From a virus: 23,497 bases of DNA. The position numbers and the translations under genes are program-made. Below, in pieces: positions 2,873 to 20,565 of the stretch (the stretch's first letter is position 1; each line of letters opens with the position of its first letter). Location: positions 1 through 23,497 of the IMG/VR virus record IMGVR_UViG_3300017776_000192. One strand, written 5' to 3'. Below the pieces are notes generated by a model. It was not told the origin of the DNA, searched no databases, and saw only the letters and a program-made list of their open reading frames with translations.

Positions 2873-5800
2873 ATGTCTCACGAATCATTATCATCAGATA
2901 AAATAACACAAAGACTGCATACAATCTTACCAGAACATATAAGAGAAGATGCACCTGCCTTTTCGGCATTTTTATCTGCATATTTTGAATTCTTAGAGAA
3001 AGAGGTTATAACTCTTAAATCACAAAGCGATTTAGATGGTATTGCTTTAGAAGACGGTCTCGGTGCTCTACTTGTAGAGTCTGCGACCGTCTCACCATCT
3101 CCAGATGAGAACACATCTAAAATAATAAACGAGTCAACTCCTACAAACCCAAATACATCAGCAGAACCATTGACTGTAGGAGAATATGTTTACGGAAAAA
3201 CAAATGGTTCTATTGCAAGAATAGATGTTATCAATACTAACACTCTATATGTTTCAACGATTTCAGGAAATGGTTTCTCAAAAGATGAAGTCATAGAAGG
3301 AAGAAATAGTTTACAAACTGCACAGGTTGAATCATACAAAGAAAACAGTATACTTGCAAACAATCGATTATTGGACTATTCCGATATCGACCATACAACA
3401 GAAGAATTCTTACAATACTTCCAGAGAGATTTCTTACCTTCGATTGATTTATCGAAACTTAAAAACAAAAGATTAACAATCAAAAACATTTCTGATTTGT
3501 ATCAGAAAAAAGGAAGTGAAGAGTCAATTAAATTCTTAATGAGACTCTTATACGGTCAAGATGCAGAAGTTAGGTATCCTGATAACGAAACACTTTATGT
3601 TTCTACATCAGATTATAATGAAGAGAGAAGACTGGTTCTTCATATGACTACAGACCAAGTACCTTCTGAGACTGATAAAATAACATATACTAGTGCTGAC
3701 GGTACTATACTTGCAGAAGCAAATATAGAAAGATTAAACACACTTACAACTGATATTTACTCATGTAGTATATCCAGAAATCATTATGGTACTTTTGTAC
3801 AGAATGAAGAGGTCTCAGTTTTAGATAGAGATGGTATCACTGTTTATACAGGAACAGTCTTAGGTGTTAACACTGGAATAGATACCGATAGTGGGTCATC
3901 TACTTACATTGCACACAATGATAGTGGTGTAATCTTAGCAGAAGATGGTTCAGGTATTCTTATGGAGAAATCAACAATTGGTTCTCTATATTCATTCAAT
4001 GACAATATTGATATAACAAGTGCAAAAGATGATGCTGGAGTTGTAGACTCTACTGCAAAGGTTGATGGTCTATCGTCTGGACCTGTTAAAGAAATTATCA
4101 TCGAACATGGTGGTATAAACTATGAAGCAGGTGAAATGGTCATCTTTGACGAAACCAATACAGATGGTAATGGTGCAGAAGCAGTCATTGGTGCAACTGG
4201 TGATGAAATTGTACTAGAGAATGCCACACTTTGGGGTCAATTTGAATTTATTGCAACTGCTGGTCAAACTTTATTTGGTGGTGCAGGTGTAAAAGATGTA
4301 AACGGAAGATATGTATTCTTCAATGACCACACTGTTAAAGTTTTTAGAGACGGTTTATTACAAGTAGACCCAGGTGATGGTTCAGTCTATACTACAAAAA
4401 ATGATAGAGTCACATTTGCAAGTGGTCAAACTGCAGGAACAAAAATTGAAATTGTTACCGAATCAAATAGATTACTACACGAAACAGGAAAACCCATAAC
4501 ATTAGATGCATATATCGATGGTGGTGGAAATACTATATCAGATGACGGAAGAATTAGAAGAATTGAAATTAGAAATGGTGGTGTAGGTTATACAAGTGTA
4601 CCAGTAGCAAGTCCAGGTGGTTATTTATATTTTGATGCAGAAGATGTAATCAAATTCCAAGTAGGAGAAGTAATCACAGTAGGAAGTCCTGTATCTAAAA
4701 ATGCAATAGTCGTAAGAATTGACACTAAACATAACAGACTAGTTGTAAAGAGAATACCTACACACATTGGTGTTTTTCAGACCAACGATGAAGTCACTGG
4801 AACACTTTCAGAAACAGTATCAATCTGTAGAAAAGCATCAGTTGCAACAGGAACAGGTGCAACTTTACTTTCATATTCAGATGAAATTGGTGGTGTAGAT
4901 TCTATCAACATTATCGGTCAAGGTTATAACTTTGACTCAGACGGTTCTGTTTCCAGAAGTTCACATTATCCTATGTTGATTTCTAACCCTACTGGAACTT
5001 TAAATAGAGACTTAGTTATAACAGGTGCAACTTCAGGTTCAACTGGAAAGGTTGTTAGTTATGAGTTATCTAAACAGATATTAACATATACTGATTTAGC
5101 AGGTGAATTCTTAGAAGGAGAGAAAGTCACATTTAATGTAAACGATTCTTTCCAAGTATTTAAATCAGACCCAATATCAGGAAGAGGTAAATTTGCTGGT
5201 GAAGGAAATGTAAATGAAGGACTATTGGGTGATAGAGGAACAATATCTGCAGAAGCATCAAACATACAAGATGGTGTTTATTATCAAACACATTCATATG
5301 TTGTAAAAGTTGGTGAATCAATCAACAGTTGGAGAAGTGTATTAAAAGATTTAATACATCCATCTGGTCACATATTCTTTGGTGAAGTTGCAATCAACTC
5401 AAATATCAATACAGTTGCAGATGAACAGTTTAGATTTAGACCGACTCTTATAATACATTCAGACCTTGGTCTTGCAGTTCCAAATGCCTTTGCAAATTCT
5501 ACAAGAGTTGTCAAACTTTGGACTACAGATTCAGAGGTTACAGATTTTGGTATTTTAACACATTTAAGAAATGCAGGTGTTCCTGCAATAGGTATAGATA
5601 GTAATGGTGTTTTAACTCTTTCTACAACAAACCCAGCAGGTCAAGACTTAGGTCAACATTCAGAGTTCTATGATAGTTCACATAGGTCAAGACACATCAA
5701 TCTTAACATCATAAACTCTTTTGCAAATAAATTAGTAAAACACGAGAAAGGTTTACATGACGGAATACCAACTGCATTATCTTTAGATTCTTCAGACCAT

Positions 5801-6304
5801 GATTACTTAGTCAGAAGTAATGAACGAAGACCTGCAGACCAAGGAAAGATTTTCCAAATTGGTGGGCAATTTGTAGATGAACGACTAATACTCGAAGATG
5901 GCAGTCTTATTGAGTTAGAAGAAGAAGTATGTAAAGTAAGAATGGAACCAAAAAGAACTGATAGGGTTATGGGAGACTTTGGTGATACCTTCACAATGGA
6001 AGACGGAAGTATATTCAGACTTGAAAGTGCAACTACAGATGAACCAACACATTACTTTACAACAGAAAGGTCTATTGAGTTGGCAGGCAAATATCTTAGA
6101 ACAGAATCAAACGATATAATTTGTCTGGAAAACGGAGACACACTAATTGATGAAGAGAACTCTGAAAACGGTTTAGTTAGTTTTGTTCCTTTTGGGTCTA
6201 CATTTAACACTATAAATACAATTAGTAATCAAAACACATATGTGATATCTTATCATATGAAAGATGAAACGGATAATGACGACATCTTAATGGAAGATAA
6301 TTAA
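2873..6304 (+). CDS. Large baseplate wedge protein, gp7-like
   Basis: A 1143-residue virion protein. The N-terminal domain (to about residue 240) resembles gp7-type wedge proteins of marine T4-like phages: LPEHIREDAPAFSAFLSAYF, then YSDIDHTTEEFLQYFQRDFL, then ISDLYQKKGSEESIKFLMRLL. T4 gp7 is about 1030 residues and is the outer wedge scaffold. The rest is a chain of beta modules. Three G-x-GY-type units lie near residues 411, 566 and 680, and a VFRDGLLQVDPGDGSVY module lies at about 456-530. A recurring acidic motif of the form LEDGSxxxLEE occurs near residues 56, 353, 1004, 1039, 1081 and 1137. The chain ends in ILMEDN, and the same frame continues after the stop with GSVLMEE (see 6317-6460). 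Placement after gp6 and before the gp8-like gene supports gp7, but the gp7 name is inferred. Confidence 0.75.
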   Translation: MSHESLSSDKITQRLHTILPEHIREDAPAFSAFLSAYFEFLEKEVITLKSQSDLDGIALEDGLGALLVESATVSPSPDENTSKIINESTPTNPNTSAEPLTVGEYVYGKTNGSIARIDVINTNTLYVSTISGNGFSKDEVIEGRNSLQTAQVESYKENSILANNRLLDYSDIDHTTEEFLQYFQRDFLPSIDLSKLKNKRLTIKNISDLYQKKGSEESIKFLMRLLYGQDAEVRYPDNETLYVSTSDYNEERRLVLHMTTDQVPSETDKITYTSADGTILAEANIERLNTLTTDIYSCSISRNHYGTFVQNEEVSVLDRDGITVYTGTVLGVNTGIDTDSGSSTYIAHNDSGVILAEDGSGILMEKSTIGSLYSFNDNIDITSAKDDAGVVDSTAKVDGLSSGPVKEIIIEHGGINYEAGEMVIFDETNTDGNGAEAVIGATGDEIVLENATLWGQFEFIATAGQTLFGGAGVKDVNGRYVFFNDHTVKVFRDGLLQVDPGDGSVYTTKNDRVTFASGQTAGTKIEIVTESNRLLHETGKPITLDAYIDGGGNTISDDGRIRRIEIRNGGVGYTSVPVASPGGYLYFDAEDVIKFQVGEVITVGSPVSKNAIVVRIDTKHNRLVVKRIPTHIGVFQTNDEVTGTLSETVSICRKASVATGTGATLLSYSDEIGGVDSINIIGQGYNFDSDGSVSRSSHYPMLISNPTGTLNRDLVITGATSGSTGKVVSYELSKQILTYTDLAGEFLEGEKVTFNVNDSFQVFKSDPISGRGKFAGEGNVNEGLLGDRGTISAEASNIQDGVYYQTHSYVVKVGESINSWRSVLKDLIHPSGHIFFGEVAINSNINTVADEQFRFRPTLIIHSDLGLAVPNAFANSTRVVKLWTTDSEVTDFGILTHLRNAGVPAIGIDSNGVLTLSTTNPAGQDLGQHSEFYDSSHRSRHINLNIINSFANKLVKHEKGLHDGIPTALSLDSSDHDYLVRSNERRPADQGKIFQIGGQFVDERLILEDGSLIELEEEVCKVRMEPKRTDRVMGDFGDTFTMEDGSIFRLESATTDEPTHYFTTERSIELAGKYLRTESNDIICLENGDTLIDEENSENGLVSFVPFGSTFNTINTISNQNTYVISYHMKDETDNDDILMEDN

Positions 6305-6502: not shown

Positions 6503-7978
6503 ATGGCAGCAATAATAACAGAAAAGTTTCGTGTTCATAATGCGAGACAATTTAAGGAAGACTTTGGTGAATCAGCATCATCAACATATGTTTTCATAGG
6601 TCGTTCATATTCATGGACTGATGATAATAACCCACCTGCACCTGCAAACGGACCTGGTGAAGAGATTCAAGCATGGGAAGACATGTTAGCACTTAAAAAG
6701 GTCAAAACAGGAGATGTTTCACACGGTATACAAAGATATAATTGGACAGCAAGTACAAAATACGATGAGTATTCACATGACTACAGTGCAACAAATACTA
6801 CACCTGCAACAAATAAAAATAATTTGTATGAGGGAAGATTCTATGTAATGACTGATGAGTATAATGTATATAAATGTATCAGAACTGGAAGAGATAGTTC
6901 AGGTGCAGTTGTAAACTCAATGAACAAACCTACAGGAACAGATGTATCAACTCTATTTGAAGGAACACCAGCAGATGAGGGTGGAACAGACGGAATGCCT
7001 TATCTTTGGAAATACATGTACACTATTTCTGCATCTGATACAATCAAATTTGTGACTAACGACTTTATACCTGTTAAGACAATAGGTGCTCAAAATAAAG
7101 TTTATGGAACTGGTGCAAATGGTGGTCTGAACTCCTCAGCAGACAACGACACTTCACAACAATGGCAAGTAGAATCAAATGCTGTCGATGGTTCAGTCTT
7201 ACATATTAAAGTAGACAATCCAGGAACCAACTATACAAATGGAACATATACAGGTGTTGCAATCGACGGAGACGGTTCAGGCGGAACATGTACTGTTAAA
7301 GTAGTTTCAGGTGGTCTAAGAGAAATCGATGTGACTGCAAGAGGAACAGGATATCTGAGAGCATCAATTGATGTTGCAAATATATCAGGTATTAATTCTG
7401 GTGGTAATGCTCAAGGTGGTGTTGCAACTCCAGTAATCTCACCTCAGTTTGGACATGGTGCTGACCCTGTAGAAGAGTTAGGTGGAAACTATATCATTCT
7501 AAATTCAAGATTAGAATTTGCAGAAGGTACAGGCGACTTCCCAACAGACAACGACTTCAGAAGAATTGGTTTATGTCAAGACCCATTTGCCTTTGGTACA
7601 ACAAATAGAGCAACAGACGATACTATGAAAGCATACTTCGAAATGACTCTATCTTCAATTGGTAGTTTATCAGTTGACGATGTTGTCTATAATGCCTCTT
7701 CAGACGGAGCAGGTGTTGCAGTTGCTAGAGTCATATCAATGGACGGAAATGTAGTCTCATATCTACCTATGGCAAACAGTGAAGGTGGTTATGTTGCTTT
7801 TTCAAATGGTCAAACAGTATACAAAACAGGAGTAGGTTCAATCGGAACACTAACTCAATCACCAACAAATCCAGAAGTTGCAAAACATACTGGTAGAATG
7901 ATGTATATTGAAAATAGAGGTGCCGTGACAAGAGCGAACGACCAAATTGAAGATATCAAACTGATTATCGAAATGTAA
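6503..7978 (+). CDS. gp8: Baseplate wedge protein, gp8-like
   Basis: A 491-residue protein resembling the gp8-type wedge proteins of marine T4-like phages. The start MAAIITEKFRVHNARQF, then YVFIGRSYSW, EDMLALKKV and YDEYSHDYSATNT (residues 1-100), followed by YEGRFYVMTDEYNVYKCI and PYLWKYMYTISASDTIKF (about residues 108-190), are typical of that family. T4 gp8 is a 334-residue dimeric wedge subunit; the extra length here comes from two beta modules, NPGTNYTNGTYTG near residue 236 and RGTGYLRASIDV near 278. Similar modules occur in the gp7-like and DUF4815 proteins. A clear GAGGAGA ribosome binding site precedes the ATG. The family resemblance is good; equivalence to T4 gp8 itself is inferred. 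Confidence 0.8.
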   Translation: MAAIITEKFRVHNARQFKEDFGESASSTYVFIGRSYSWTDDNNPPAPANGPGEEIQAWEDMLALKKVKTGDVSHGIQRYNWTASTKYDEYSHDYSATNTTPATNKNNLYEGRFYVMTDEYNVYKCIRTGRDSSGAVVNSMNKPTGTDVSTLFEGTPADEGGTDGMPYLWKYMYTISASDTIKFVTNDFIPVKTIGAQNKVYGTGANGGLNSSADNDTSQQWQVESNAVDGSVLHIKVDNPGTNYTNGTYTGVAIDGDGSGGTCTVKVVSGGLREIDVTARGTGYLRASIDVANISGINSGGNAQGGVATPVISPQFGHGADPVEELGGNYIILNSRLEFAEGTGDFPTDNDFRRIGLCQDPFAFGTTNRATDDTMKAYFEMTLSSIGSLSVDDVVYNASSDGAGVAVARVISMDGNVVSYLPMANSEGGYVAFSNGQTVYKTGVGSIGTLTQSPTNPEVAKHTGRMMYIENRGAVTRANDQIEDIKLIIEM

Positions 7979-8024: not shown

Positions 8025-11000
8025 ATGGCAGAGAAAACTGATTTAAATATATCACCCTATTACGATGACTATTCAGAAGATAATAAATTTCAAAAAGTTC
8101 TTTATCGTGCTGGAAGACCATTACAAGCAAGAGAATTAACTCAGTCTCAATCTATCTTACAGAATCAGATAGAGAGATTTGGTGACCACTTCTTTAAAGA
8201 GGGGTCAATAGTATCTGGTTCTCAGTGTGATATTGACATGGACTTATATTATGTTAAAATAAAGTCTGCTAATCCAAATGCAAATGGTGATGCAAATATC
8301 GAAACATATAGAACTGCATCACATGGTTTACATGTACAAGGTAAAACTTCAGGTGTTGTTGCAAAAATTATTACCTCATCTGCTGAAACAACAGATGACA
8401 AAGCAACACTTTTTGTTTACTATCTACAACAAGGAACAAATACATCAAACGATTTTGCCTTTACAGCAAATGAAGAACTGCAACTTGTCACTTTAGACTC
8501 TGCAGGTAATACTTCTGATGTCAGTTCAAACAACAATGACTTTCAAGTTGAAGTATCAGACCAAACACCAAATGGTCGTGCTTCGATAGCAAACATTTCA
8601 GAAGGTGTTGTCTTCAGTAGAGGATATTTCCTTAAAGTTGACAAACAAGAACTCATACTTGAAAAGTATTCAGGTAGACCAAGTTATAAAGTAGGTCTTT
8701 CTATTACAGAAAGTTTTGTAGGTTCTGCAGAAGACGGTGCATTACTTGACAATGCAACAGGAACATCAAACGAAAACGCTTCTGGTGCAGATAGATTTAA
8801 AATAGATTTAGTATTAAAGAAACAATCACTGGTAACTCCAGACGATACAAACTTCATTGAGTTAACAAGAGTTAATCAAGGTATTATTGAACTACATGTC
8901 AATAGACCTATGTACAATGAAATTGAAAACACAATGGCACGAAGAACATTCGATGCATCTGGTGATTTCGTTGTAAGACAGTTCACTCAATCAATGAGAG
9001 AACATTTAGATGATACTACAAACAGAGGTTTCTATACTGCACAAAATGGTGGTAAAGAAGATAAATTTGTTATGCAGATATCTCCTGGTAAAGCATATGT
9101 TAAGGGTTATGAAGTAGAGAAAATCGGAAGTTCTATTATACCTGTAGATAAAGCAAGAACTACTTCTACTTTAGCATCAACAAATACACCTATAAGATTA
9201 GGTAATATTTTAAGAGTCACAAAAGCACATTCATTACCAGAATTTGGTAATGAATCAGGAACAGATTCACAAGACCCATTTAATACATGTAAATTGTGGC
9301 CTTCAGTGGTTGCAAGTAATGGTACAGAAAACAGTGAAATATCAATTGGATTTGCAAGAGTTAGAGATATCACACTAAATGAAGGAACAGATTCAAGTAA
9401 TGTATATACTGCAACTTCTAAGTGGGACTTATCAATGTTCGACATTAAGATGTTCACTAAAGTCACATTTGGTAGTTTAAATGGTTCTGAGTTTGGAGTT
9501 GGTGATAGAATTACCGATTCAGTTTCAGGTGCAACAGGAATACTCGCATCGATAAGTAGTTCAGATAACTCTATTATGTTGCATGATGTAGTAGGAGATT
9601 TTAAAGTATCAAGTAGTGCAATCTCAGAAGGAAGCACAGCAACAACAAAGGGTGGAATTACAACAGTAAGAAAATATAACATAGATAGAGTTCGTTCTAT
9701 ATCACAAGTTCCTGGTGCTAATGGAAGAGAAATATTCACTGCCAATGTAATAACAAACGGTAGTTTTGTTTTAACAGGTACAGTTCAAATAACAAATTCA
9801 TCAACAGCATTAACAGGATTTGGAACTGCCTTCACTAGAGAATTAAAAGAAGGAGATGTTATCTATAATCCTTCAGGTTCAGGACAAGAATTAGTTATTG
9901 CTTCAGTTGCAGATAATCAGACTGCAACATTAGTTAGTCCTGGTGCAACAGGAAACTTCCAAGGAAATGTCACAAGAAGACGAGTTAATATTGTTAACCA
10001 AGACCAGACTGCATCAATATTCAGTTGGCCGAGAGATTGGGTTGAAGCACATAGACCAGACCAAGTTAAAGTAAGAAGACAAAAGGTTGTGACAGTTGCA
10101 TCAAACTCTTTCCAACTTAGTGTATCTTCAAGTGAATCTTTTGATTCAAATACTCCTAATACAGATGACTTAACAATTTCAGTTATCGAAAGAGGAACTA
10201 ATACTGGTGGTAATGCTAAGTCAGCAGGTAGTCTACTTAATATCGAAGACTACACAGTGACACCAGGTTCAAACACATTAACAATTTCAGGTTTTCATGC
10301 TGATGATGACAATGCAGTTTTAAAGGTCACATATACAGTTGATATCAACACACCTGTTAACAGAGACAAAACATTAAATAAAAATAGATGTTTAAAAGTT
10401 TCTACAAGTTCCACAACTTTCTATGGAACTCAATACACAAACAAAGACATATCTCTTGGTGTATCAGATGCATTTAAGATAAGAGGTATCTATGAAGGAG
10501 TTGATGGTACTCCTGTGACACCAAGTGCAACATTTACAGTCACATCAGGAACATTTGCAGAACACGAAACAATCGTTGGTCAAACATCTGATGCAAGAGC
10601 AGTAATGGTCACACTAAATGGTAATGGAAATACAAACTATTTCTATTATACAACACCAGAAAGATTTACCGATACTGAAGTAATTGTTGGTTCTTCTTCA
10701 CTTGCAACCGCAACTTTATCAAATATCGTTGCAGGTTCTCCAGAGATTAAAAACAGATACTTCTTTGACGATGGTCAGAGAGATGGTTTCTATGACTTAG
10801 CAAAAATTACACTTAAATCAGGTGAACCTAAACCACAAGGACCTATTTTAATAGTATTCGATTACTTTACAGCATCAAATGCTGGTGATTTCTATGATGT
10901 AAATTCATACACTAACATTGACTATAAAGATATACCTGTTTACTCTCCAAGTAGAGTCGACTTAGGTGGTTTAGAACCAGACGGAACATTCGAACTATCG

Positions 11001-14000
11001 GATTGTGTTGACTTTAGACCAAGTGTGGGACAGATATTTGCACAATCAACTTTTGCAAATACATCTCAACACAATGTTGTAAGTCCATTAGACTTATCTA
11101 ACACAACTTCTGGTGCCAGATATGCACCATTCGGTTATGAAACTGGTCGTTCTTTTGCAACAACAAGAAGTAATATTTCTGTTATGAATGCATCAACACC
11201 AGATACACCTGTTAATGGTTCAAATATGACTGGTGCTATTGACTTCTATGTTGGAAGAATAGACAAAGTGTTTATGCACAAAACAGGTCAGATGATGGTA
11301 TCAACAGGTATTCCTTCATTGACACCAACCAAACCTAAAGGAATCGATGAAGCAATCGAAATGTTTGAGTTGAGAATACCACCCTATACAAATAATCTAA
11401 AAGATATCAGAGTAAGGTCATATGACCATAGACGATATACCATGAAAGATATTGGTAAGATTAACAATAGGGTCACAAACTTAGAAAGAATTACTGCATT
11501 ATCTTTATTAGAAAAAGACACACAAACAAAACAAATTTTAGATGCAGACGGATTCGATAGATTCAAATCAGGTTTCTTAGTAGATAACTTCAGAGGTCAT
11601 AGAGTTGGTGATGTATCACATCCAGACTATAATGTATCTATAGATGTTAAATTAGGTGCAATGAGACCTAAGTCATATTCACAATTCTTTGATTTAGATT
11701 TAGATACTTCTGCATCAGCAAACTATACTAAGACTGGTGATTTAATTACATTACCATTCTCAGAATTGTCATATGTAAACCAAGATAAAGCATCAAGACA
11801 ATTGAATGTTAACCCATATCATGTCTTTGCATTCGATGGTCAACTTAAATTAACACCTGGTACTGATATATGGCAAGATACAGATAGATTACCAGAAGTC
11901 AGAGTAAACAGAGAAGGAAACTTTGATGCTGTTATGGCAGGAAGTGATAATGCACTTGGTACAGTTTGGAACAACTGGCAAACCACATGGGCAGGTGAAC
12001 CATCTGCAGTAAGTTCTGAAGTTCAAGCAACATCAAATGGTTCTTGGTCAGGAGACCCAGCACAAGGTGGTGAATGGGTTGCAGGTCTACAAGTCACAAG
12101 AGAAATTACAGAAACACCTGAAACACAAACAAGAACAGGTGTGACAACAAGTGTTGTTGAAGACTTTGCAGAAACAAGAAACGATAGAATTGTATCAGTA
12201 TCAATGATACCATTCATGCGTGCCAGAACTATTGAAATCGATGCAACCAATTTAAAACCAAAATCAAATCACTTTATATATTTTGATAATATCGATGTAA
12301 ACAAATATGTAAGACCACTTAATGCAAACTATTCACAAGATGGTGGTACAACATCTACTTCAGGTCTTAAAACAGACGGAAACGGAAGATGTCGTGCATA
12401 CTTTGATTTACCTAATTCAGAGTCACAAAGATTCCCTAGTGGTATGAGAGAGATGATGATTACATCATCTGCTTTTAATTTATCTAACCCAGCATCTTCT
12501 GCTAGTGTTATATATCAAGCACAAGGATTATTACAATCTTCACAAACAGAAATTGTTTCTACAAGAAATGGTCGAGTTATTACAGAAAGAACAAGAGGTG
12601 AGAGACAGTTTACAAGAAGAGGTGAAAACATAAATGCTACTGAATGGGATTCACAAGCACCAGAAATACCAGTAGATACAATTGAACCTGTTGTAACCGT
12701 TGCAGAACCAATTATAGTTGTACCCCCAAGTGCTCCAATAGTTCCACCAATACCAGAACCAGTCTTGCCTGTGCCGGCACCAATTAGTCCTCCACAGTTA
12801 GAGAGATTCCCAACACAAAGATTGGATATTGCAGATAGAAGATTCATAACCAGATTAGATGGTGGTGGAAGAGGTGGTTGGAAAGACCCATTAGCACAAT
12901 CATTTATGTGTGAACCACAAGGTGGAATGTTCTTATCATCAATTGATATTTTCTTTGCATCTAAGTCAGAAAACTTACCTGTATCAGTAGAAATCAGAAA
13001 CATGGTAAACGGATACCCAGGACAAGTAATATTACCATTCTCAGTGGTAACTAAGAATCCATCAGATGTTACCACTTCTGTAGACGGTTCAGTTGCAACA
13101 ACATTTACATTCGAATCACCAGTTTATATAGAAGAGGGTGCAGAAATGTGTTTCGTTGTTCTATCTAATTCAAATGATTACGAAGTGTTTATTTCAAGAA
13201 TGGGTGAACCAGATATCGTTTCTGGTGAAACAATATCAGGACAACCTTATGCAGGTTCATTATTCTTATCACAAAATGCATCTACATGGACTGCAGAACA
13301 AACAGATGATATGAAGTTCAACATGAAGATATGTTCATTCGATACAACAAAAACACCTGATTTAAGATTTAACAATAGTGCATTACCTTCTCATACATTG
13401 CAGAATAATCCTATTGAAGCATTATCAGGTAAAAACTTTGTTAAAGTATATAACTATTCTCATGGAATGTATACAACTGCATCAAGTGTAGTAATTTCAG
13501 GTGCAACTGGAGATAAACAAGGTTCTGCTTTAACTATTAGTTCAGAAACTATATCAAGTGGAACTTTAAACAACAGTGCGACAACAACTGGAACACAATC
13601 TGCTACAACTGGTAACGGAACAGGAATGGTAGTCGAAGTGATTTCATCTTCAAGTGGTGCTTTAACTAGTTGTAAAATTATAAATCCAGGTCAAGGTTAT
13701 ATAGTGGGTGAAGATGTCAGTTTCCAAGAGGGTGGAAATGGTGCTACAATAACTGTTAATGTTGATACAGTAGGAGAAACAATCGGTGGTATACCAGTAG
13801 ATGCAATTAATACTACATTTAATACAATAAAAGAGATTGGTATTGATTCCTTCTGTGTGACACCAGATGTATCTGCATATGACTTCAAAGATAATTATAC
13901 TGCACCTTCAAATACAGTGAGTGGTGGTACAAATGTAATGTCAACAAGAAATTATTATTTTGATACATTACATACAATGATACCTAGTTTACAGTTTAAA

Positions 14001-14738
14001 AACACAAGAATATATTCAAGTGTTTACATGTCTCCAATGCAATCACCAGAAGGATTTGCAAATGGAAGTAATCATGTTAAGAAAACAGTCACAGAATTTG
14101 TCACACTAAATGACAATGTGCATTTTGACAGTCCTCATGTAATTTCATCCACAGTGAATGAATCTGCTTACAATGGTGGTTCAAAATCATTTACATGTCA
14201 GTTGCAATTACAATCATTCAATTCCAACTTGTCTCCTATAATCGATGTAGGAACTTTAGGTGCTATTGGTATTATGAATAGACTGAATAATATTGACAGT
14301 GCAACTAGTAAAAAGGTTGATGGAACAACAGAATCATTACCAGAAGGAACAGTTTATGTTGCATCTACTGAACCTGAGGGTGATAACAATGCAATGGTAT
14401 ATTGTACAAGAAAAGTTAACTTGAAGACTCCTGCAACTGCATTGAGAGTCACAGCAGATTTATTTAAACCTGCAACAACAGACATCAAGTTCATGTATAA
14501 AGTTCTGAAGAACGATGACTCACAACCTTGGGATGACTTGGGTTGGGAATATTTCAATACAGACGGTTCTCCAGATTCAACACTTGAATCAGATGCAAGA
14601 AACTTTAAAGAATATGATTATACTGCAGAAGGACTTTCAGAGTTCTCATCATTCTCAATTAAAGTAGTAGGGCAAGGAACCAATACATGTGAAATACCTT
14701 TAGTAGCGGCATTAAGATGTATTGCATTGGCAACATAA
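8025..14738 (+). CDS. Giant DUF4815-type virion protein
   Basis: A 2237-residue protein. Its N-terminus (LNISPYYDDYSEDNKFQKVL, then RAGRPLQARELTQSQSIL, then NQIERFGDHFFKEGSIV) is the hallmark of the DUF4815 family, large structural proteins of marine and other T4-like phages, probably baseplate or fibre-attachment proteins. Other family-like blocks are VSMIPFMRARTIEIDATNL, then KPKSNHFIYFDNIDVNKYV (about residues 1390-1430), and KDPLAQSFMCEPQGGMFLSS (about 1620-1640). A proline-rich hinge lies at about 1552-1590 (for example IVPPIPEPVLPVPAPISPP), and a NPGQGYIVGEDVSF module near 1885. The early part holds many short beta modules. A spaced AGGAC precedes the ATG and a strong hairpin lies just upstream. 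It ends one base before the next ATG. The exact virion role is not known from sequence; it could be analogous to gp10 or to a long-fibre connector. Confidence 0.85.
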   Translation: MAEKTDLNISPYYDDYSEDNKFQKVLYRAGRPLQARELTQSQSILQNQIERFGDHFFKEGSIVSGSQCDIDMDLYYVKIKSANPNANGDANIETYRTASHGLHVQGKTSGVVAKIITSSAETTDDKATLFVYYLQQGTNTSNDFAFTANEELQLVTLDSAGNTSDVSSNNNDFQVEVSDQTPNGRASIANISEGVVFSRGYFLKVDKQELILEKYSGRPSYKVGLSITESFVGSAEDGALLDNATGTSNENASGADRFKIDLVLKKQSLVTPDDTNFIELTRVNQGIIELHVNRPMYNEIENTMARRTFDASGDFVVRQFTQSMREHLDDTTNRGFYTAQNGGKEDKFVMQISPGKAYVKGYEVEKIGSSIIPVDKARTTSTLASTNTPIRLGNILRVTKAHSLPEFGNESGTDSQDPFNTCKLWPSVVASNGTENSEISIGFARVRDITLNEGTDSSNVYTATSKWDLSMFDIKMFTKVTFGSLNGSEFGVGDRITDSVSGATGILASISSSDNSIMLHDVVGDFKVSSSAISEGSTATTKGGITTVRKYNIDRVRSISQVPGANGREIFTANVITNGSFVLTGTVQITNSSTALTGFGTAFTRELKEGDVIYNPSGSGQELVIASVADNQTATLVSPGATGNFQGNVTRRRVNIVNQDQTASIFSWPRDWVEAHRPDQVKVRRQKVVTVASNSFQLSVSSSESFDSNTPNTDDLTISVIERGTNTGGNAKSAGSLLNIEDYTVTPGSNTLTISGFHADDDNAVLKVTYTVDINTPVNRDKTLNKNRCLKVSTSSTTFYGTQYTNKDISLGVSDAFKIRGIYEGVDGTPVTPSATFTVTSGTFAEHETIVGQTSDARAVMVTLNGNGNTNYFYYTTPERFTDTEVIVGSSSLATATLSNIVAGSPEIKNRYFFDDGQRDGFYDLAKITLKSGEPKPQGPILIVFDYFTASNAGDFYDVNSYTNIDYKDIPVYSPSRVDLGGLEPDGTFELSDCVDFRPSVGQIFAQSTFANTSQHNVVSPLDLSNTTSGARYAPFGYETGRSFATTRSNISVMNASTPDTPVNGSNMTGAIDFYVGRIDKVFMHKTGQMMVSTGIPSLTPTKPKGIDEAIEMFELRIPPYTNNLKDIRVRSYDHRRYTMKDIGKINNRVTNLERITALSLLEKDTQTKQILDADGFDRFKSGFLVDNFRGHRVGDVSHPDYNVSIDVKLGAMRPKSYSQFFDLDLDTSASANYTKTGDLITLPFSELSYVNQDKASRQLNVNPYHVFAFDGQLKLTPGTDIWQDTDRLPEVRVNREGNFDAVMAGSDNALGTVWNNWQTTWAGEPSAVSSEVQATSNGSWSGDPAQGGEWVAGLQVTREITETPETQTRTGVTTSVVEDFAETRNDRIVSVSMIPFMRARTIEIDATNLKPKSNHFIYFDNIDVNKYVRPLNANYSQDGGTTSTSGLKTDGNGRCRAYFDLPNSESQRFPSGMREMMITSSAFNLSNPASSASVIYQAQGLLQSSQTEIVSTRNGRVITERTRGERQFTRRGENINATEWDSQAPEIPVDTIEPVVTVAEPIIVVPPSAPIVPPIPEPVLPVPAPISPPQLERFPTQRLDIADRRFITRLDGGGRGGWKDPLAQSFMCEPQGGMFLSSIDIFFASKSENLPVSVEIRNMVNGYPGQVILPFSVVTKNPSDVTTSVDGSVATTFTFESPVYIEEGAEMCFVVLSNSNDYEVFISRMGEPDIVSGETISGQPYAGSLFLSQNASTWTAEQTDDMKFNMKICSFDTTKTPDLRFNNSALPSHTLQNNPIEALSGKNFVKVYNYSHGMYTTASSVVISGATGDKQGSALTISSETISSGTLNNSATTTGTQSATTGNGTGMVVEVISSSSGALTSCKIINPGQGYIVGEDVSFQEGGNGATITVNVDTVGETIGGIPVDAINTTFNTIKEIGIDSFCVTPDVSAYDFKDNYTAPSNTVSGGTNVMSTRNYYFDTLHTMIPSLQFKNTRIYSSVYMSPMQSPEGFANGSNHVKKTVTEFVTLNDNVHFDSPHVISSTVNESAYNGGSKSFTCQLQLQSFNSNLSPIIDVGTLGAIGIMNRLNNIDSATSKKVDGTTESLPEGTVYVASTEPEGDNNAMVYCTRKVNLKTPATALRVTADLFKPATTDIKFMYKVLKNDDSQPWDDLGWEYFNTDGSPDSTLESDARNFKEYDYTAEGLSEFSSFSIKVVGQGTNTCEIPLVAALRCIALAT

Positions 14739-14739
14739 T

Positions 14740-14952
14740 ATGAAAGAGTATGCACAAGTTGAAGGTCAGTCTAATCTCGTAAGAGATGAAGAGTCATCTG
14801 CAATTGTAAATACAGACATTGAACAGTGGAGACTTGCTAAACAAAGAAAATTAAAGTTTAAAGCTCAGACAGATGAGATAAATAATTTAAAGACTGAAGT
14901 GATTGAAATTAAAACGATACTTCAAGATATACTAGGAAAGTTAAATGGCTAA
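14740..14952 (+). CDS. Small coiled-coil virion-associated protein
   Basis: A 70-residue protein starting MKEYAQVEGQSNLVRDEESS. The ATG at 14740, one base after the DUF4815 stop, is chosen over an upstream TTG at 14722 that would overlap the large gene. The N-terminal half has the pattern (Y-x-V-x-G, LVRD, SxAIVNTD) of a small conserved protein that accompanies the DUF4815 gene in marine T4-like phages. The C-terminal half (KFKAQTDEINNLKTEVIEI, then ILQDILGKL) has heptad spacing and should form a short coiled coil. Its start is probably coupled to the upstream stop. Its last eight bases overlap the next gene. Function is unknown; it may be a small linker or assembly helper. Confidence 0.8.
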   Translation: MKEYAQVEGQSNLVRDEESSAIVNTDIEQWRLAKQRKLKFKAQTDEINNLKTEVIEIKTILQDILGKLNG

Positions 14953-16045
14953 AACAGTAGATAATTACAGCACTATAGAAGAATTCAGGCAGAAGTATAA
15001 TGAACTTGCAGTTGATGTTGGTGAAGTTCAAGGACTAAGACCTGCATTAGGAGATAATCTAGTCGATGCTGTTAACGCAGTTGAAGATAAAGCATTCTAT
15101 TTTGGAAGATATAGATATACCGCAACTGCAAATCAACAGACATTTACAGGTGCTGATGGACAAGGAAATATTCTTAAATATAAAGGAAATAGAGTTCAAG
15201 TATTTAAGAATGGTGCATTGTTAGAAGAAGCACAAGATTGGCAAGTTGCCGGTCTTGCAGGTGCTTTCTATTATAGCATACAGTTAGTGTCTCCGGCAAG
15301 TGTAGGTGATTTAATACAAATCTTTGCTTATACAGGTTCTTTCGAAGGAACTGCAACATCTTCTGCAATACTTTCATTCTTTACAGAAACATTACAGAAC
15401 ACTATCTATAATACAAATACAAATGGTATTATACTTCAAGGAGATAATTCATCTCCTACAACTACTCTACAAAGTGGATTCAATATTCAACTTGCAGGTA
15501 AGACTTATGCAGAAGATAATATATCACTTGCAAGTGGTAAAACTCTAACAGGAAATGTTATTGGTGATTTAACTGGTGATGTCACAGGAAATGTCACTGG
15601 AAACCTAACAGGTAATGTCACAGGAAATGTTTCAGGTAGTGCAGGAACAGTCACAAGTATAACTACACATTCTGCTTCTACTCTATCAGATATTAATTAT
15701 ACATCTGCACCATCTGGTGGTCAAGTTTTGGCATGGGATGCTACCAATAATTATTGGGAACCTGTCAATCCAACAAACACAACAGACTCAGTATCAGAAG
15801 GTAATAATCAGAAATACTTTACAGATACAAGAGTAAATGCAATCATTAATGCACAAGACGGTTTATCTAAAACTTTCGCTGCAGGTACTTCCGACCCTTT
15901 AGATGGTGATATAAATATCAGTGTTAACACATCAGAGGGAATAAAAATCGTTAGTGATAATGTCGTGATGGATAAGACAATTACAAGTTCTGCACCTTCA
16001 GGAACAGGCAGTACATCATCAGGTCACATATGGTTTGTAGTATAA
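14945..16045 (+). CDS. Fibre-type structural protein with GNVT repeat
   Basis: A 366-residue protein. Residues 1-50 (YSTIEEFRQKYNELAVDVGE, then LVDAVNAVEDKAFYF) form a helical segment found at the start of this gene in marine T4-like phages. Residues about 55-131 hold the module RYRYTATANQQTF, then VFKNGALLEEAQDW, shared with other fibre proteins. Residues 203-231 are a four-residue tandem repeat of the type G-[ND]-[VL]-T. Next comes SVSEGNNQKYFTDTRVNAII, a linker that recurs in the genes at 22845 and 23105, and the chain ends GHIWFVV. It overlaps the preceding gene by eight bases (ATGGCTAA), with AGGAAAG about five bases before the ATG. It is probably an appendage or fibre protein; receptor contact is not shown. 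Confidence 0.78.
   Translation: MAKTVDNYSTIEEFRQKYNELAVDVGEVQGLRPALGDNLVDAVNAVEDKAFYFGRYRYTATANQQTFTGADGQGNILKYKGNRVQVFKNGALLEEAQDWQVAGLAGAFYYSIQLVSPASVGDLIQIFAYTGSFEGTATSSAILSFFTETLQNTIYNTNTNGIILQGDNSSPTTTLQSGFNIQLAGKTYAEDNISLASGKTLTGNVIGDLTGDVTGNVTGNLTGNVTGNVSGSAGTVTSITTHSASTLSDINYTSAPSGGQVLAWDATNNYWEPVNPTNTTDSVSEGNNQKYFTDTRVNAIINAQDGLSKTFAAGTSDPLDGDINISVNTSEGIKIVSDNVVMDKTITSSAPSGTGSTSSGHIWFVV
15551..15634 (+). repeat. 12-base tandem repeat coding G-[ND]-[VL]-T
   Basis: Seven successive 12-base units with variants such as GGAAATGTCACA, GGAAACCTAACA and GGTAATGTCACA encode GNVI, GDLT, GDVT, GNVT, GNLT, GNVT and GNVS. Synonymous drift between units shows that the peptide pattern is kept rather than the DNA alone. 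Such repeats form regular beta rods in fibre proteins. Confidence 0.75.
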
Positions 16046-16048
16046 ATT

Positions 16049-17485
16049 ATGTCAGAAGAAATTTATGTAAATACTGGTGGGACTTTTCAACAACCGTTTA
16101 ATGATAGGCAACCCGCTAACGCACAGCAACCTTATATTGCTAATGCTCAGCAACCATATATAGCGAACGCACAAACACCTTTTACATATCAAAACAGGAC
16201 TCCATTCACATATAGGAATCCAACAAACGCACAGCAACCTTATATTGCAAATGCTCAACAACCATATCCGTATATTGCAAATGCTAGAAATCCTTATATT
16301 GCAAATGCTCAACAACCATATCCGTATATAGCAAATGCAAGACAACCAATTATTGCGAATGCTCAGCAACCATATCCATTTACATATACGGCAAATGCAA
16401 GACAACCATATATTGCGAATGCAAGGCAACCGTCTACTTACAATGCTAGATATCCTGCTGGGTACAGAAATCCTGTATCAGCACAAAACCCATTTACATA
16501 TCAGGCAAGATATCCTGCGAATGCTCAATCACCAAGTAATGCACAACAACCATTTACTTACAATGCAAGGACACCTTTTACATATCAAGTTCCTTTTACA
16601 TATCAAGCAAGAACACCTGTTTCATCACAAACTCCTGTGATTTATGATGTATTTGGTGGTGGAAGTTCATCAACTGCAAATATCGAATCAACATCAGATG
16701 TGGGTCAAGCACCATTTCTTGCCAAAGTAAACACAGATGTCGGTATGTCTGCGAATGAATGGTGGGGTGCGGCATCACCACATATGGCACAAAATCCTAA
16801 TTCAGCATTTGCTCCAGGTAATCCTTATTATCCTGCAAATCCTTTAGCCGCTTCTAGTTTACAGAATCTCGCTTATGAGTGGAAGACAGTGCAAAGTCAG
16901 AACTTTAATTTTAGTTTTGGTGAAGCTTTTGCACAGTTCTATGTAGGATTTATTAAGACATCTGCACCAGGATTTATTTACTATGGGTATTCTGGAGGTA
17001 CCTCAGCAGCAATGTCAAATACATTTGGTCAAAATCCATATTATATCAAAATTGTTCCTACTGAATTTGGTAATAATAATGTAGTTGATGATACATGGAC
17101 ATTCTCTATTAAATATACCGTTCAATCACAATCCATTTTTAACGGTGGTACAGATTCGGAACATCCTGCCAATAGACAATATTCCACAAACTATACTGCA
17201 GGTACATTCTATAATTTGTATTCAGGTTCTTCATCAGCAGGTAATATGAGTGGAACAGCTAATTTTAGGCAGTTTATGTGGAAAGCAGTATCTAGTTCAA
17301 ATCCAGGTAATAGTACCGCAATTGTCAGTGCTTCAGGATTGATATTTACAATTAGAGCAAGTAAATCTGGTCAGACAACTTACTATACACATTTCATTGC
17401 ATCAAATGGTACTTCTGCTGGTGGTCACTTAGGAAATGATATACATCTTGTTAGTAGTTATGGTAGTTATAAACTTGCAGTATAA
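16049..17485 (+). CDS. Pro/aromatic repeat protein with C-terminal globular domain
   Basis: A 478-residue protein. Residues 17-196 are units of six or eight residues ending in proline, such as YIANAQQP, FTYQNRTP, FTYRNP and ANAQSP, with occasional YP inserts. All 27 proline spacings in the array (P16 to P196) are even. Phe and Tyr always fall at odd offsets after proline and Arg at even offsets, which fits a two-faced beta-type fibre. Residues about 215-478 form a Gly/Ser/aromatic domain (SANEWWGAASPHMAQ, then FNFSFGEAFAQFYVGF) that I do not recognise; it may be a tip or binding domain. The ATG lies three bases after the previous stop with no clear ribosome binding site, so coupling is likely. 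It is probably a virion appendage. The next gene carries the same array with a different end. Confidence 0.7.
   Translation: MSEEIYVNTGGTFQQPFNDRQPANAQQPYIANAQQPYIANAQTPFTYQNRTPFTYRNPTNAQQPYIANAQQPYPYIANARNPYIANAQQPYPYIANARQPIIANAQQPYPFTYTANARQPYIANARQPSTYNARYPAGYRNPVSAQNPFTYQARYPANAQSPSNAQQPFTYNARTPFTYQVPFTYQARTPVSSQTPVIYDVFGGGSSSTANIESTSDVGQAPFLAKVNTDVGMSANEWWGAASPHMAQNPNSAFAPGNPYYPANPLAASSLQNLAYEWKTVQSQNFNFSFGEAFAQFYVGFIKTSAPGFIYYGYSGGTSAAMSNTFGQNPYYIKIVPTEFGNNNVVDDTWTFSIKYTVQSQSIFNGGTDSEHPANRQYSTNYTAGTFYNLYSGSSSAGNMSGTANFRQFMWKAVSSSNPGNSTAIVSASGLIFTIRASKSGQTTYYTHFIASNGTSAGGHLGNDIHLVSSYGSYKLAV
16097..16636 (+). repeat. Degenerate 18/24-base coding repeat array 1
   Basis: Units coding for Φ-x-[AY]-[NQR]-A-[QR]-x-P peptides follow one another without interruption. 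Unit lengths are 6, 12, 18, 24 or 30 bases, so length always changes by two codons at a time. Codons vary widely between units (proline as CCA, CCT or CCG; asparagine as AAC or AAT), so the peptide pattern rather than the DNA is what is kept. Confidence 0.85.
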
Positions 17486-17497
17486 TGGAGATAGATA

Positions 17498-18208
17498 ATG
17501 CCATCAGCTAATCAACCAGTTATCGTACAACAACCTTATATTGCTAACGCAAGTTATCCTGCAAATGCAAGACAACCATATATTGCTAATGGAAGAAATC
17601 CATTTACATATAGAAATCCATTTACATATCGTGTACCTTATATTGCGAATGCAAGGCAACCTTTTACCTACAGAAATCCTGTAAGTTATCGTGTTCCCTA
17701 TATTGCAAATGCTCAAACACCGTTCACATACAATGCAAGGTCACCATTTACCTATCAGAATAATGCTACAGGTCGGAATCCGTTCACATATCAACATAGA
17801 GTTCCCTTTACATATAACGCAACTGGTAGAACACCTTTCACTTATCAGAATAGACAACCTAGTACATATGAGACACAAGGTCAAACACCCTTTACATATC
17901 AGAATAGGTCACCTTTTACATATAGAAATCCTGCAAGTGCTAGACAACCTTACATTGCTAATGCGAGGCAACCTTCTACATACAGTCATAGGTCACCTTT
18001 CACATATCAGAATAGAACACCTTTTACATATACCGTTCCTGTTCCAGGTACCAGACAAATCGGTCCTGTGGCAAAAGTTAAACAAGTTTGGATTAATGAT
18101 AACGGAACATTAAGAAAAGCAAGTGAAATGTATATAAATAATTCTGGAACTGCATCAAAGGTTCATCAGACTCAACCCACAGCACAATTAACAGAACCTA
18201 ATTCATAA
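17498..18208 (+). CDS. Second Pro/aromatic repeat protein
   Basis: A 236-residue protein whose residues 8-183 are the same kind of array as in the preceding gene, with FTYRNP, FTYQNRSP, YIANARQP and VSYRVP units. Longer units carry an inserted NATG or similar (FTYNATGRTP, FTYQNNATGRNP). Its 24 proline spacings from P7 to P183 are all even. The C-terminal 50 residues (KVKQVWINDNGTLRKASEMY, then INNSGTASKVH) are a short doubled motif of the kind K-x-[IV]-x-[IV]-N-[DN]-x-G-T, seen at the ends of many phage fibre and tail proteins. GGAG (17487-17490) lies seven bases before the ATG. It is probably made together with the preceding gene and may form a mixed fibre with it; function unknown. Confidence 0.72.
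   Translation: MPSANQPVIVQQPYIANASYPANARQPYIANGRNPFTYRNPFTYRVPYIANARQPFTYRNPVSYRVPYIANAQTPFTYNARSPFTYQNNATGRNPFTYQHRVPFTYNATGRTPFTYQNRQPSTYETQGQTPFTYQNRSPFTYRNPASARQPYIANARQPSTYSHRSPFTYQNRTPFTYTVPVPGTRQIGPVAKVKQVWINDNGTLRKASEMYINNSGTASKVHQTQPTAQLTEPNS
17519..18046 (+). repeat. Degenerate 18/24-base coding repeat array 2
   Basis: Twenty-four proline-ended units of 2, 6, 8, 10 or 12 residues, related to array 1 but richer in FTY units. The proline, aromatic and arginine parity is the same as in array 1. The two arrays are separated by the globular domain of the first gene. Confidence 0.85.
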
Positions 18209-18233: not shown

Positions 18234-18569
18234 ATGGCTATTATCGCAAATTTATATATTGACCAAGGAACCGACTTCACAATTACAGTAGATGTGACTG
18301 ATGCAGCGGGAGATGTCCTTGATTTGACTAACTATACTGCATTAGCACAGATGAGAAAAACATACAGTTCTTCTAGTGCTTCAGTAGCATTTACAACTTC
18401 GATATCAGCATCGAATGGTCAAGTCACATTGAGTTTAAATGATACTCAAACCAATTCCTTAGAAGCAGGTCGATATGTTTACGATTTAAATATTACAAGT
18501 CCTGGTGGGTTAACTACTAGAGTGGTCGAAGGACAGGCAGTAGTGACACCAGGTGTAAGTCGGAGTTAA
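18234..18569 (+). CDS. Small beta-sandwich structural protein
   Basis: A 111-residue protein, MAIIANLYIDQGTDFTITVD followed by LDLTNYTALAQMRKTYSSSS and LEAGRYVYDLNITSPGG, ending RVVEGQAVVTPGVSRS. Alternating hydrophobic strands and the L-x-x-Y-T-x-x-A-Q-[MI]-R-K block resemble small Ig-like virion proteins that occur near fibre genes in marine T4-like phages. It may be an N-terminal fibre-attachment or decorating domain on its own. The only start signal is the TATAAATA box five bases upstream; no ribosome binding site is seen, which suggests a leaderless transcript or coupling to the upstream gene 25 bases away. Function is otherwise unknown. Confidence 0.75.
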   Translation: MAIIANLYIDQGTDFTITVDVTDAAGDVLDLTNYTALAQMRKTYSSSSASVAFTTSISASNGQVTLSLNDTQTNSLEAGRYVYDLNITSPGGLTTRVVEGQAVVTPGVSRS

Positions 18570-18966: not shown

Positions 18967-20565
18967 ATGGCAACAGTAATTCAGATTAAAAGAAGTACAG
19001 GTGTTTCAGCTCCAGCAGTCTCAGACTTATCGGAAGGTGAATTAGCGTATGTACAGGATAGGTCGAATTCAGGTGCTGGTGCGAAACTATACATTGAGTC
19101 AGTAGATTCAGATAACTCTACACCCCTAATCCAAGCGATTGGTGGTAAGTATTATACTGATATTCTTTCTGGTTCTTCTGCTACACCATCCAACTTTAAA
19201 GTTGGTAATGGTTCAACGGCAGGTGCTAGTCTTTCACTAATGGAAGACAGTGATAACGGAACAAACTTTGTTGCGTTAAAAGCTGCTGACACATTAGGTG
19301 CATCAACAACCTTTACTCTTCCTGCGGCAGACGGTTCTGCTAACCAGGTTATTGCAACAGACGGAAGTGGAGCACTTTCATTTGTATCAACGACTTCAAC
19401 TTTAGCTGGTGCTTCAGACTCAGATATTTCTTCACCTACTTCAGCACAAATTCTTGTGCATGACGGTTCAGATTCATTTGACAATGTTAGCGTATCAGGA
19501 GATGCAACATTAGCTGCAAACGGTGCTTTAACAATTGCTAACTCAGCAGTTGAAACAGCAATGATTGCTGATGATGCAGTGACTTTAGACAAATTAGCAG
19601 ATGCTTTGTGGGTAACACAATCAGAAGGTATTAGTTCAAACGATAACGACACTACTATACCTACTTCAGCTGCTGTTAAAGACTATGTAGATAGTTTAGA
19701 TAGAGATGACGACTTAAACATTGCAGGTTCTTCAGGAACAGGTACAGTTGATTTAGACACTCAATCATTAACAATCACAGGTACAGCAAACGAAGTTGAG
19801 ACTTCAGCAAGTGGACAAACTATAACAGTTGGTCTTCCTAACGATGTCACAATTGCAAATAACTTAACAGTTTCAGGAAACTTAATATCAGACGATATTA
19901 CAACTGCAACTCTAACAACATCTGGTAACTTAACAGTCACAGGTAACTTGACAGTTAACGGTACTACAACTACAGTAAACTCAACAACAGTAAATATTGC
20001 TGACCCTGTATTTGAACTAGGTGATGATTCTTCAGATGACAATCTTGACAGAGGTATTAAATTTAAGTACAACTCAGGTGGTGCTAAAATTGGTTTCTTT
20101 GGTATGGACGATACAGACGGTTCTTTCGTTGCTCTTACAAGTGCAACAGATAGTTCATCAGTATTCTCTGGAACTGCTATGGCAGGTAAATTCGGAAACT
20201 TAACTCTTGCTAACGCAAGTATGAGTGGAAGTATTGACTCTTATGCAGGTTCAGCTCCTACAGATGGTCAGTTATTAATTGGAGATACTTCATCAGGAGT
20301 ATTTGACGCTGCTACTTTAACTGCAGGAGAAGGACTTGACATCACTAATGGTGCAGGTGCTATTACTCTTTCAGCGGAAGATGCAACAGCATCCAACAAA
20401 GGTATCGCAAGTTTCTCAGGCACTTACTTCACTGTAAGTTCAGGAGATGTAGCTATCGATGACGCAACTACTACTGCAAAAGGTATTGCAAGTTTCCATG
20501 CGGATAACTTCACAGTATCAAGTGGTTCGGTTACAGTCACAGCTATAGACGGCGGAACATTTTAA
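18967..20565 (+). CDS. Tail-fibre-like protein with IKRS N-terminus
   Basis: A 532-residue protein. The start MATVIQIKRSTGVSAPAVSD, then LSEGELAYVQD, is a common virion-attachment segment of marine phage fibres, resembling the N-terminal domain of Mtd-type proteins. A linker FTLPAADGSANQVIATDGSG lies near residue 118. Next comes the widespread beta-stack NLTVSGNLISDD, NLTVNGTTTTVNSTTVNIAD and PVFELGDDSSDDNLDRGIKF (about residues 298-365). The last 80 residues contain a doubled KGIASF segment (NKGIASFSGTYFTVSSGDV and KGIASFHADNFTVSSGSV), and the chain ends AIDGGTF. The ribosome binding site AGGAAA lies about eight bases before the ATG, after a structured 149-base gap. Fibre character is well supported; host receptor and exact position on the virion are not known. 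Confidence 0.82.
   Translation: MATVIQIKRSTGVSAPAVSDLSEGELAYVQDRSNSGAGAKLYIESVDSDNSTPLIQAIGGKYYTDILSGSSATPSNFKVGNGSTAGASLSLMEDSDNGTNFVALKAADTLGASTTFTLPAADGSANQVIATDGSGALSFVSTTSTLAGASDSDISSPTSAQILVHDGSDSFDNVSVSGDATLAANGALTIANSAVETAMIADDAVTLDKLADALWVTQSEGISSNDNDTTIPTSAAVKDYVDSLDRDDDLNIAGSSGTGTVDLDTQSLTITGTANEVETSASGQTITVGLPNDVTIANNLTVSGNLISDDITTATLTTSGNLTVTGNLTVNGTTTTVNSTTVNIADPVFELGDDSSDDNLDRGIKFKYNSGGAKIGFFGMDDTDGSFVALTSATDSSSVFSGTAMAGKFGNLTLANASMSGSIDSYAGSAPTDGQLLIGDTSSGVFDAATLTAGEGLDITNGAGAITLSAEDATASNKGIASFSGTYFTVSSGDVAIDDATTTAKGIASFHADNFTVSSGSVTVTAIDGGTF

Follow-up and report, generated by a model that had tools for sequence, protein, structure and literature searches.

The window analyzed here is the whole 23,497-nucleotide stretch (positions 1 to 23,497) of IMG/VR virus record IMGVR_UViG_3300017776_000192, a 23.5-kb contig of an uncultured virus in which a T4-like baseplate cluster is followed by two adjacent genes, A and B, and by further fibre-type genes. 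A and B, both on the plus strand, are the subject of this study. Protein A (16049..17485, 478 residues) starts with an IYVNTGGT module (MSEEIYVNTGGTFQQ, 16049..16093), continues with a parity-locked array (P16 to P196, 16094..16636) in which every proline spacing is even, and ends with a variable C-terminal domain of about 280 residues (16637..17482), which we propose forms a tip. Protein B (17498..18208, 236 residues) has a short N-terminus, a parity-locked array (P7 to P183, 17516..18046) that mirrors the array of A, and a C-terminal module of the VKQVWINDNGT type (...GPVAKVKQVWINDNGTLRKASEMYINNSGTASKVHQ..., 18047..18205), which matches PHROG_13729 over residues 191-225. The N-terminal module of A resembles the repeat unit of the C-terminal module of B, and relatives share this layout.

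A preliminary description of the window, made from its letters alone, had drawn attention to the arrays, and most of what it reported was reproduced on recounting. All 27 proline spacings from P16 to P196 of A and all 24 from P7 to P183 of B are even. Phenylalanine and tyrosine lie at odd offsets from the preceding proline (odd/even counts of 30/0 in A and 33/0 in B) and arginine at even ones (even/odd 12/0 and 18/0), as stated there; in addition, alanine is confined to odd offsets (30/0 and 16/0) and nearly all isoleucines are at even ones. The array of A, which had been given as starting at 16097, begins one codon earlier, at 16094. In four scans of IMG/VR we found several hundred array relatives, and we fitted a three-state hidden Markov model (HMM), comprising two alternating phases and a background, to 234 unique related open reading frames (ORFs) from marine viral contigs. 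Over 68,126 array residues the model placed 137 formal phase slips; a single misdecoded protein accounts for nearly all, and without it about 20 true slips remain. Parity is thus conserved across homologues, and the rule is indeed a two-residue alternation rather than a fixed repeat length. The residue rules carry over to the family for proline and the aromatics; for arginine they weaken to a preference (12% of proline-phase against 5% of opposite-phase positions). Proline-phase residues are P, Q, R, T, N, I and S, those of the other phase Y, A, S, N, F, Q, T, R, G and V. The seven PYIANA copies in A are written in six different codon strings, and such codon variety among identical units points to selection on the protein and not to recent DNA slippage. 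The earlier view of a two-faced extended β-strand that takes up insertions as residue pairs is supported by the family as a whole, but it overlooked the mirrored pairing of two chains, of which the parity rule would, judging from the sequences, be one consequence. The absence of a named family, also suspected before, was borne out for both arrays in Pfam, NCBIfam and the PDB (the last at E≤1). PHROGs returned weak matches to A and B, mostly to the terminal module of B, and gave no fibre-family assignment for either protein; in the open-access literature we found neither these units nor a comparable system described (subscription journals and preprints lay outside this search).

The two arrays match each other in length and in order. 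Of 220 untruncated clusters, 204 have exactly two array ORFs side by side. Composition-based length estimates ran into the C-terminal domain of A, and lengths were instead taken from the two-phase HMM; for 104 unique pairs, spanning 165-556 residues, the lengths of A and B have a Pearson correlation of 0.992 and a slope of 0.993, with a median difference of 6 residues and a difference within 20 residues in 95 pairs. In some pairs one chain is 40-90 residues off its partner, perhaps through assembly collapse. In the window, the spacings of A read from N to C are those of B read from C to N, if 2+8 is read as 10 and 2+10 as 12. The positions in A and B sum to 203 for 24 prolines (the arrays hold 28 and 25), a constant-sum match that none of 20,000 unit shuffles reached (best 19). 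Averaged over the 104 pairs, the proline match was 0.82 for the antiparallel arrangement, 0.53 for the parallel one and 0.43 after unit shuffling, and the antiparallel match exceeded each of 100 shuffles in 102 pairs. In these comparisons the shuffles had equal freedom of offset, and the offset chosen for the true pairs is the one that the array ends predict. Parallel pairing of A and B, with a match near background, was rejected. Comparisons of A with a B of similar length from another genome (0.51), of A with A (0.56) and of B with B (0.55) were also far below the 0.82 of the true pairs. Between close genomes, insertions and deletions are mirrored as well, for example +18, +10 and +8 in A and +8, +10 and +18 in B. 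The IMG/VR genomes are related and partly redundant, for which clustering, within-genome shuffles and leave-relatives-out tests are a partial remedy. Separately, a proline-rich 743-residue ORF about 2 kb 5' of one pair (L168:1-2232) matches its own prolines in antiparallel order (0.90), which probably reflects a regular repeat.

The mirrored order extends to the identity of the units. Using 70-74 non-redundant pairs with a proline match of at least 0.6, we found that PYIANAQQ faces PFTYQNRQ (also with a final S or T), PFTYNARY faces PYIANARQ and PVSAQQ faces PFTYRN; further facing units are PANAQS/PFTYRV, PYPYIANSQT/PGTYARQGQT and PNIRxAQx/PxTYxHRS. A TY-type unit stands opposite a non-TY unit in 97.7% of 1,043 pairs of eight-residue units (58% in the within-genome shuffle null) and in 86% of 715 pairs of six-residue units (null 56%). 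We also scored every antiparallel and every parallel register by residue pairs, with proline masked and with training restricted to genomes that have few 12-mers in common with the test pair; the true register came out on top in 52 of 54 pairs, and as first of 250 in the window pair. Like phase faces like phase at 19,638 of 19,682 positions (99.8%); aromatics face small residues or arginine and avoid aromatics, and the pair preferences are reciprocal (A-Y/Y-A, Q-F/F-Q, I-R/R-I, H-R/R-H). In a mean-field coupling analysis, the strongest inter-chain couplings clustered on the antidiagonals x+y = L and x+y = L-2, and were gone after shuffling. Such inter-chain covariation is the signature of an antiparallel β-ladder.

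Near-complete contigs carry two A/B pairs, about 10 kb apart. The genome of the window continues in contigs that are 99.8% identical, with a second pair (L074:5431-7068) about 1.1 kb beyond the right end of the window, whose end modules are of other types (VKTPxGWN... and RWDG...QxWP). In the 12 genomes for which both pairs were available, the proline match was 0.81 within pairs (cis) and 0.45 between them (trans), indicating that the pairing codes are largely orthogonal. A gene for a 2-oxoglutarate- and Fe(II)-dependent (2OG-Fe(II)) oxygenase lies about 4 kb past the second pair (L074:10975-11700) and raises the idea that the arrays undergo prolyl hydroxylation.

Thirteen ORFs combine the N-terminal module of A and the C-terminal module of B in one chain. 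Seven of these mirror themselves to a degree reached by at most 1 in 300 shuffles, while in the other six the self-mirroring is weak or absent. In one fusion (L209:5902-7365), 18 mirrored proline pairs are centred about residue 225, and single-chain versions mirrored about their own middle were also seen in L218, L262, L258 and L083. Such fusions support a hairpin that brings the base modules together and places the tip at the turn. In the cultured Synechococcus phage S-SCSM1, the short tail fibre (L246:3647-4912) contains an insert rich in Arg and Pro, in which many of the proline spacings are even; it is possibly a distant single-chain analogue and was not counted. A tblastn match in Vibrio phage F23s1 (L080:1-572) proved unrelated, being a 24-nucleotide tandem repeat at the joined ends of the record.

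The sequence statistics show parity, matching lengths, mirrored order, complementary units, couplings on antidiagonals, specificity in cis and natural fusions. We consider it probable, with good confidence, that A and B each form one half of a long, thin tail fibre, paired as a two-chain antiparallel β-ladder; its β structure, the direct contact between A and B, the role in the tail fibre and the assignment of base and tip are what we infer. Chain A would lead from the base, formed by its IYVNTGGT module, through an extended β-strand of some 180 residues, which would measure about 60 nm when straight, to the variable tip domain, and chain B would return from the tip, antiparallel along A, to end beside the N-terminus of A with a similar module. 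Antiparallel pairing would set the IYVNTGGT module of A beside the VKQVWINDNGT module of B at the first end, the presumed base, and the short N-terminus of B beside the C-terminal domain of A at the second, the presumed tip. In the ladder, proline phase would lie opposite proline phase and aromatic phase opposite aromatic phase, so that in all prolines of one phase the site that lacks an NH could point away from the other chain, with the aromatics all on one face. An insertion of an odd number of residues would turn the side chains to the opposite face and reverse the direction of the hydrogen bonds, which would explain the parity lock. Aromatic PxTY-type units would act as a zip code with equal-length, small units of the PxxANA, NIR or PVSAQ type opposite them, and their irregular order would set partner and register, block slippage and prevent cross-pairing where a phage has two fibre pairs. 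At 0.33 nm per residue, the fibres of the family would span roughly 56-184 nm.

The ladder need not be a lone ribbon. In a variant that we rate slightly better than even, several ladders would assemble into a bundle, for instance (AB)3 as an antiparallel needle of six strands resembling the tip of T4 gp37, or the ribbon would be coiled, with prolines at its corners. A lone ribbon would leave its aromatic face exposed, phage fibres are mostly trimeric, and co-located prolines could mark shared corners. The two antidiagonals, two residues apart, could likewise correspond to two interfaces, but diagonal contacts within one ribbon also explain the second of them.

The other explanations fare much worse. 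It is improbable that A and B have no mutual contact and instead both line an ordered third partner (a tube, a sheath or some other fibre) that dictates how long they are and how their units are ordered. Although nearby genes encode other structural proteins, one of them a possible scaffold, the mirrored order, the reciprocal pair preferences and the short-range antidiagonal couplings are as direct contact predicts, and the natural A-B fusions favour it as well. A historical origin of the match, by copying of the B array from A or by descent of both from a common ancestor with parity and length as relics, appears very unlikely: the arrays do share a unit vocabulary and recombination between them is likely, yet a copy would match in parallel (0.53, against 0.82 antiparallel), and facing units are opposite in type with their insertions and deletions mirrored. 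That the mirror pattern stems from antiparallel pairing of the RNA or DNA that encodes A and B, as an inverted repeat, can practically be dismissed. RNA pairing is likewise antiparallel, but the fraction of complementary bases at the register is no higher than 0.415, far from a duplex, where base composition predicts 0.319; proline codons cannot pair with facing proline codons, and identical units vary in their codons.

Several observations weigh against the two-chain ladder itself. No A/B pair was found in any cultured phage, although the low-complexity filter of BLAST may mask some. Length changes of at least 6 residues were seen in 61 close comparisons; in only 33 of these was the change the same, within 3 residues, in both chains, and the remainder involve repeat expansions or collapses in one chain only, either real intermediates or perhaps errors of assembly. 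A divergent minority of pairs match weakly (L079 0.41, L204 0.48), and the couplings leave the true register either with prolines facing prolines or shifted by two. AlphaFold2 gave a predicted local distance difference test (pLDDT) score of 29.6 for a read-through hairpin (L073, 222 residues) and of 32.2 for a read-through of A and B of the window (719 residues), with the arrays at about 25. These runs were of single chains, and we draw no conclusion from the lack of structure of the arrays in the models; a Foldseek search of the A+B model against the PDB had no match at E≤0.001.

Among known systems, the needle at the tip of the T4 long tail fibre protein gp37 is among the closest: each chain runs out and back with length-matched strands. 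A and B would resemble it in that one strand leads out and a second, antiparallel and equally long, leads back, here by virtue of length match, mirrored order, couplings and fusions, whereas gp37 is a homotrimer from a single gene, without proline parity and, to our knowledge, without a unit code. Searches of the PDB (E≤1) and PHROGs revealed no homology of A or B to gp37 or to a family of distal long-tail-fibre subunits, and the HxH iron-binding motifs of gp37 were not found, as the A array has no histidine and the B array two isolated ones. Like the arrays as proposed here, the triple-stranded β-helix of the T4 gp5 C-terminus is fibrous and β-rich, with short repeats and alternating inward and outward residues, but it has a fixed octapeptide and three parallel identical chains, whereas A and B mix spacings of 2, 6, 8, 10 and 12 and would be antiparallel partners. 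The left-handed β-helix of hexapeptide repeats and other solenoids have six-residue β units with alternation, as may the arrays, yet they need a constant unit length, whereas lengths mix freely in A and B, which have no match to a Pfam hexapeptide model. In heterodimeric coiled-coil zippers, modular repeats encode partner and register, as proposed here, but with a period of 7 and in helices, as opposed to a period of 2 in proline-rich, putatively antiparallel β-strands. Collagen-like and polyproline fibres are elongated, proline-rich phage proteins as well; collagen and polyproline II have a period of 3, in contrast to the strict period of 2 in the arrays of the 234 ORFs.

The genomic setting agrees with a role in the tail fibre. 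The baseplate cluster comprises gp25 (27-440), gp6 (440-2311), a gp7-like protein (2873-6304), gp8 (6503-7978) and a DUF4815/VrlC-type baseplate-associated protein (8025..14738, plus strand) that marks the tail-fibre module by context; a 156-residue ORF between gp6 and the gp7-like gene (2391-2861) has no PHROG match. Directly 5' of A lies a 366-residue, likely fibre-type protein with GxVTGNVTGN repeats (14945..16045, plus strand), and 3' of B a 111-residue protein (18234..18569, plus strand) that matches PHROG phrog_3304, L-shaped tail fibre assembly (LtfC-like), at E = 8.9e-26, its match to PF23926 falling under the cut-off. A and B lie 3' of the gp25-gp6-gp7-gp8-VrlC run and adjoin an LtfC-like gene, the place that tail-fibre genes take in a structural cluster of T4 type. 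By gp6, the closest isolates are Methylophilales phage Melnitz (43%) and Pelagibacter phages Mosig and HTVC008M (39-40%); no array ORF was found in the examined regions of these three genomes. Two contigs with these phage genes, L082 (JAAXIF010000105.1) and L083 (NZWA01000048.1), are binned in metagenome-assembled genomes of Sphingobacteriales and Flavobacteriales, which reflects either viral contamination of the bins or pointers to the host.

The C-terminus of A is swapped among relatives for a Hint/intein-like domain (PF14623, PF01079, PF05203), another β-rich domain or a short Gly-rich tail. Hint/intein-like, self-processing C-termini occur in many relatives (L188:5486-5989, L197, L180, L041, L225, L166), often 3' of a Gly-rich stretch, at the end where the N-terminus of B would sit. 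As a speculation, the domain might link the end of A to another group, the N-terminus of B included.

The object that A and B build is probably of an ordinary kind, a phage tail fibre. We regard it as likely that they represent a new class of protein-protein recognition, in which complementary short units form a digital address over up to about 550 residues and co-evolve by mirrored insertions and deletions; we know of no other example of such a modular code for protein-protein pairing. If this holds, it would be a natural, modular code by which β-strands of separate proteins pair. Such a code would be read one unit at a time along tens to nearly two hundred nanometres, with orthogonal pairs in a single genome, and could serve as a template for designed β zippers. 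The pairing of these two uncharacterized marine phage proteins is now directly testable with two recombinant proteins. The mirrored insertions and deletions pose an evolutionary puzzle, as two genes gain and lose matched units at mirrored positions. For the phages, the code would explain how very long, thin fibres with a set register can be built from repetitive strands without misalignment.
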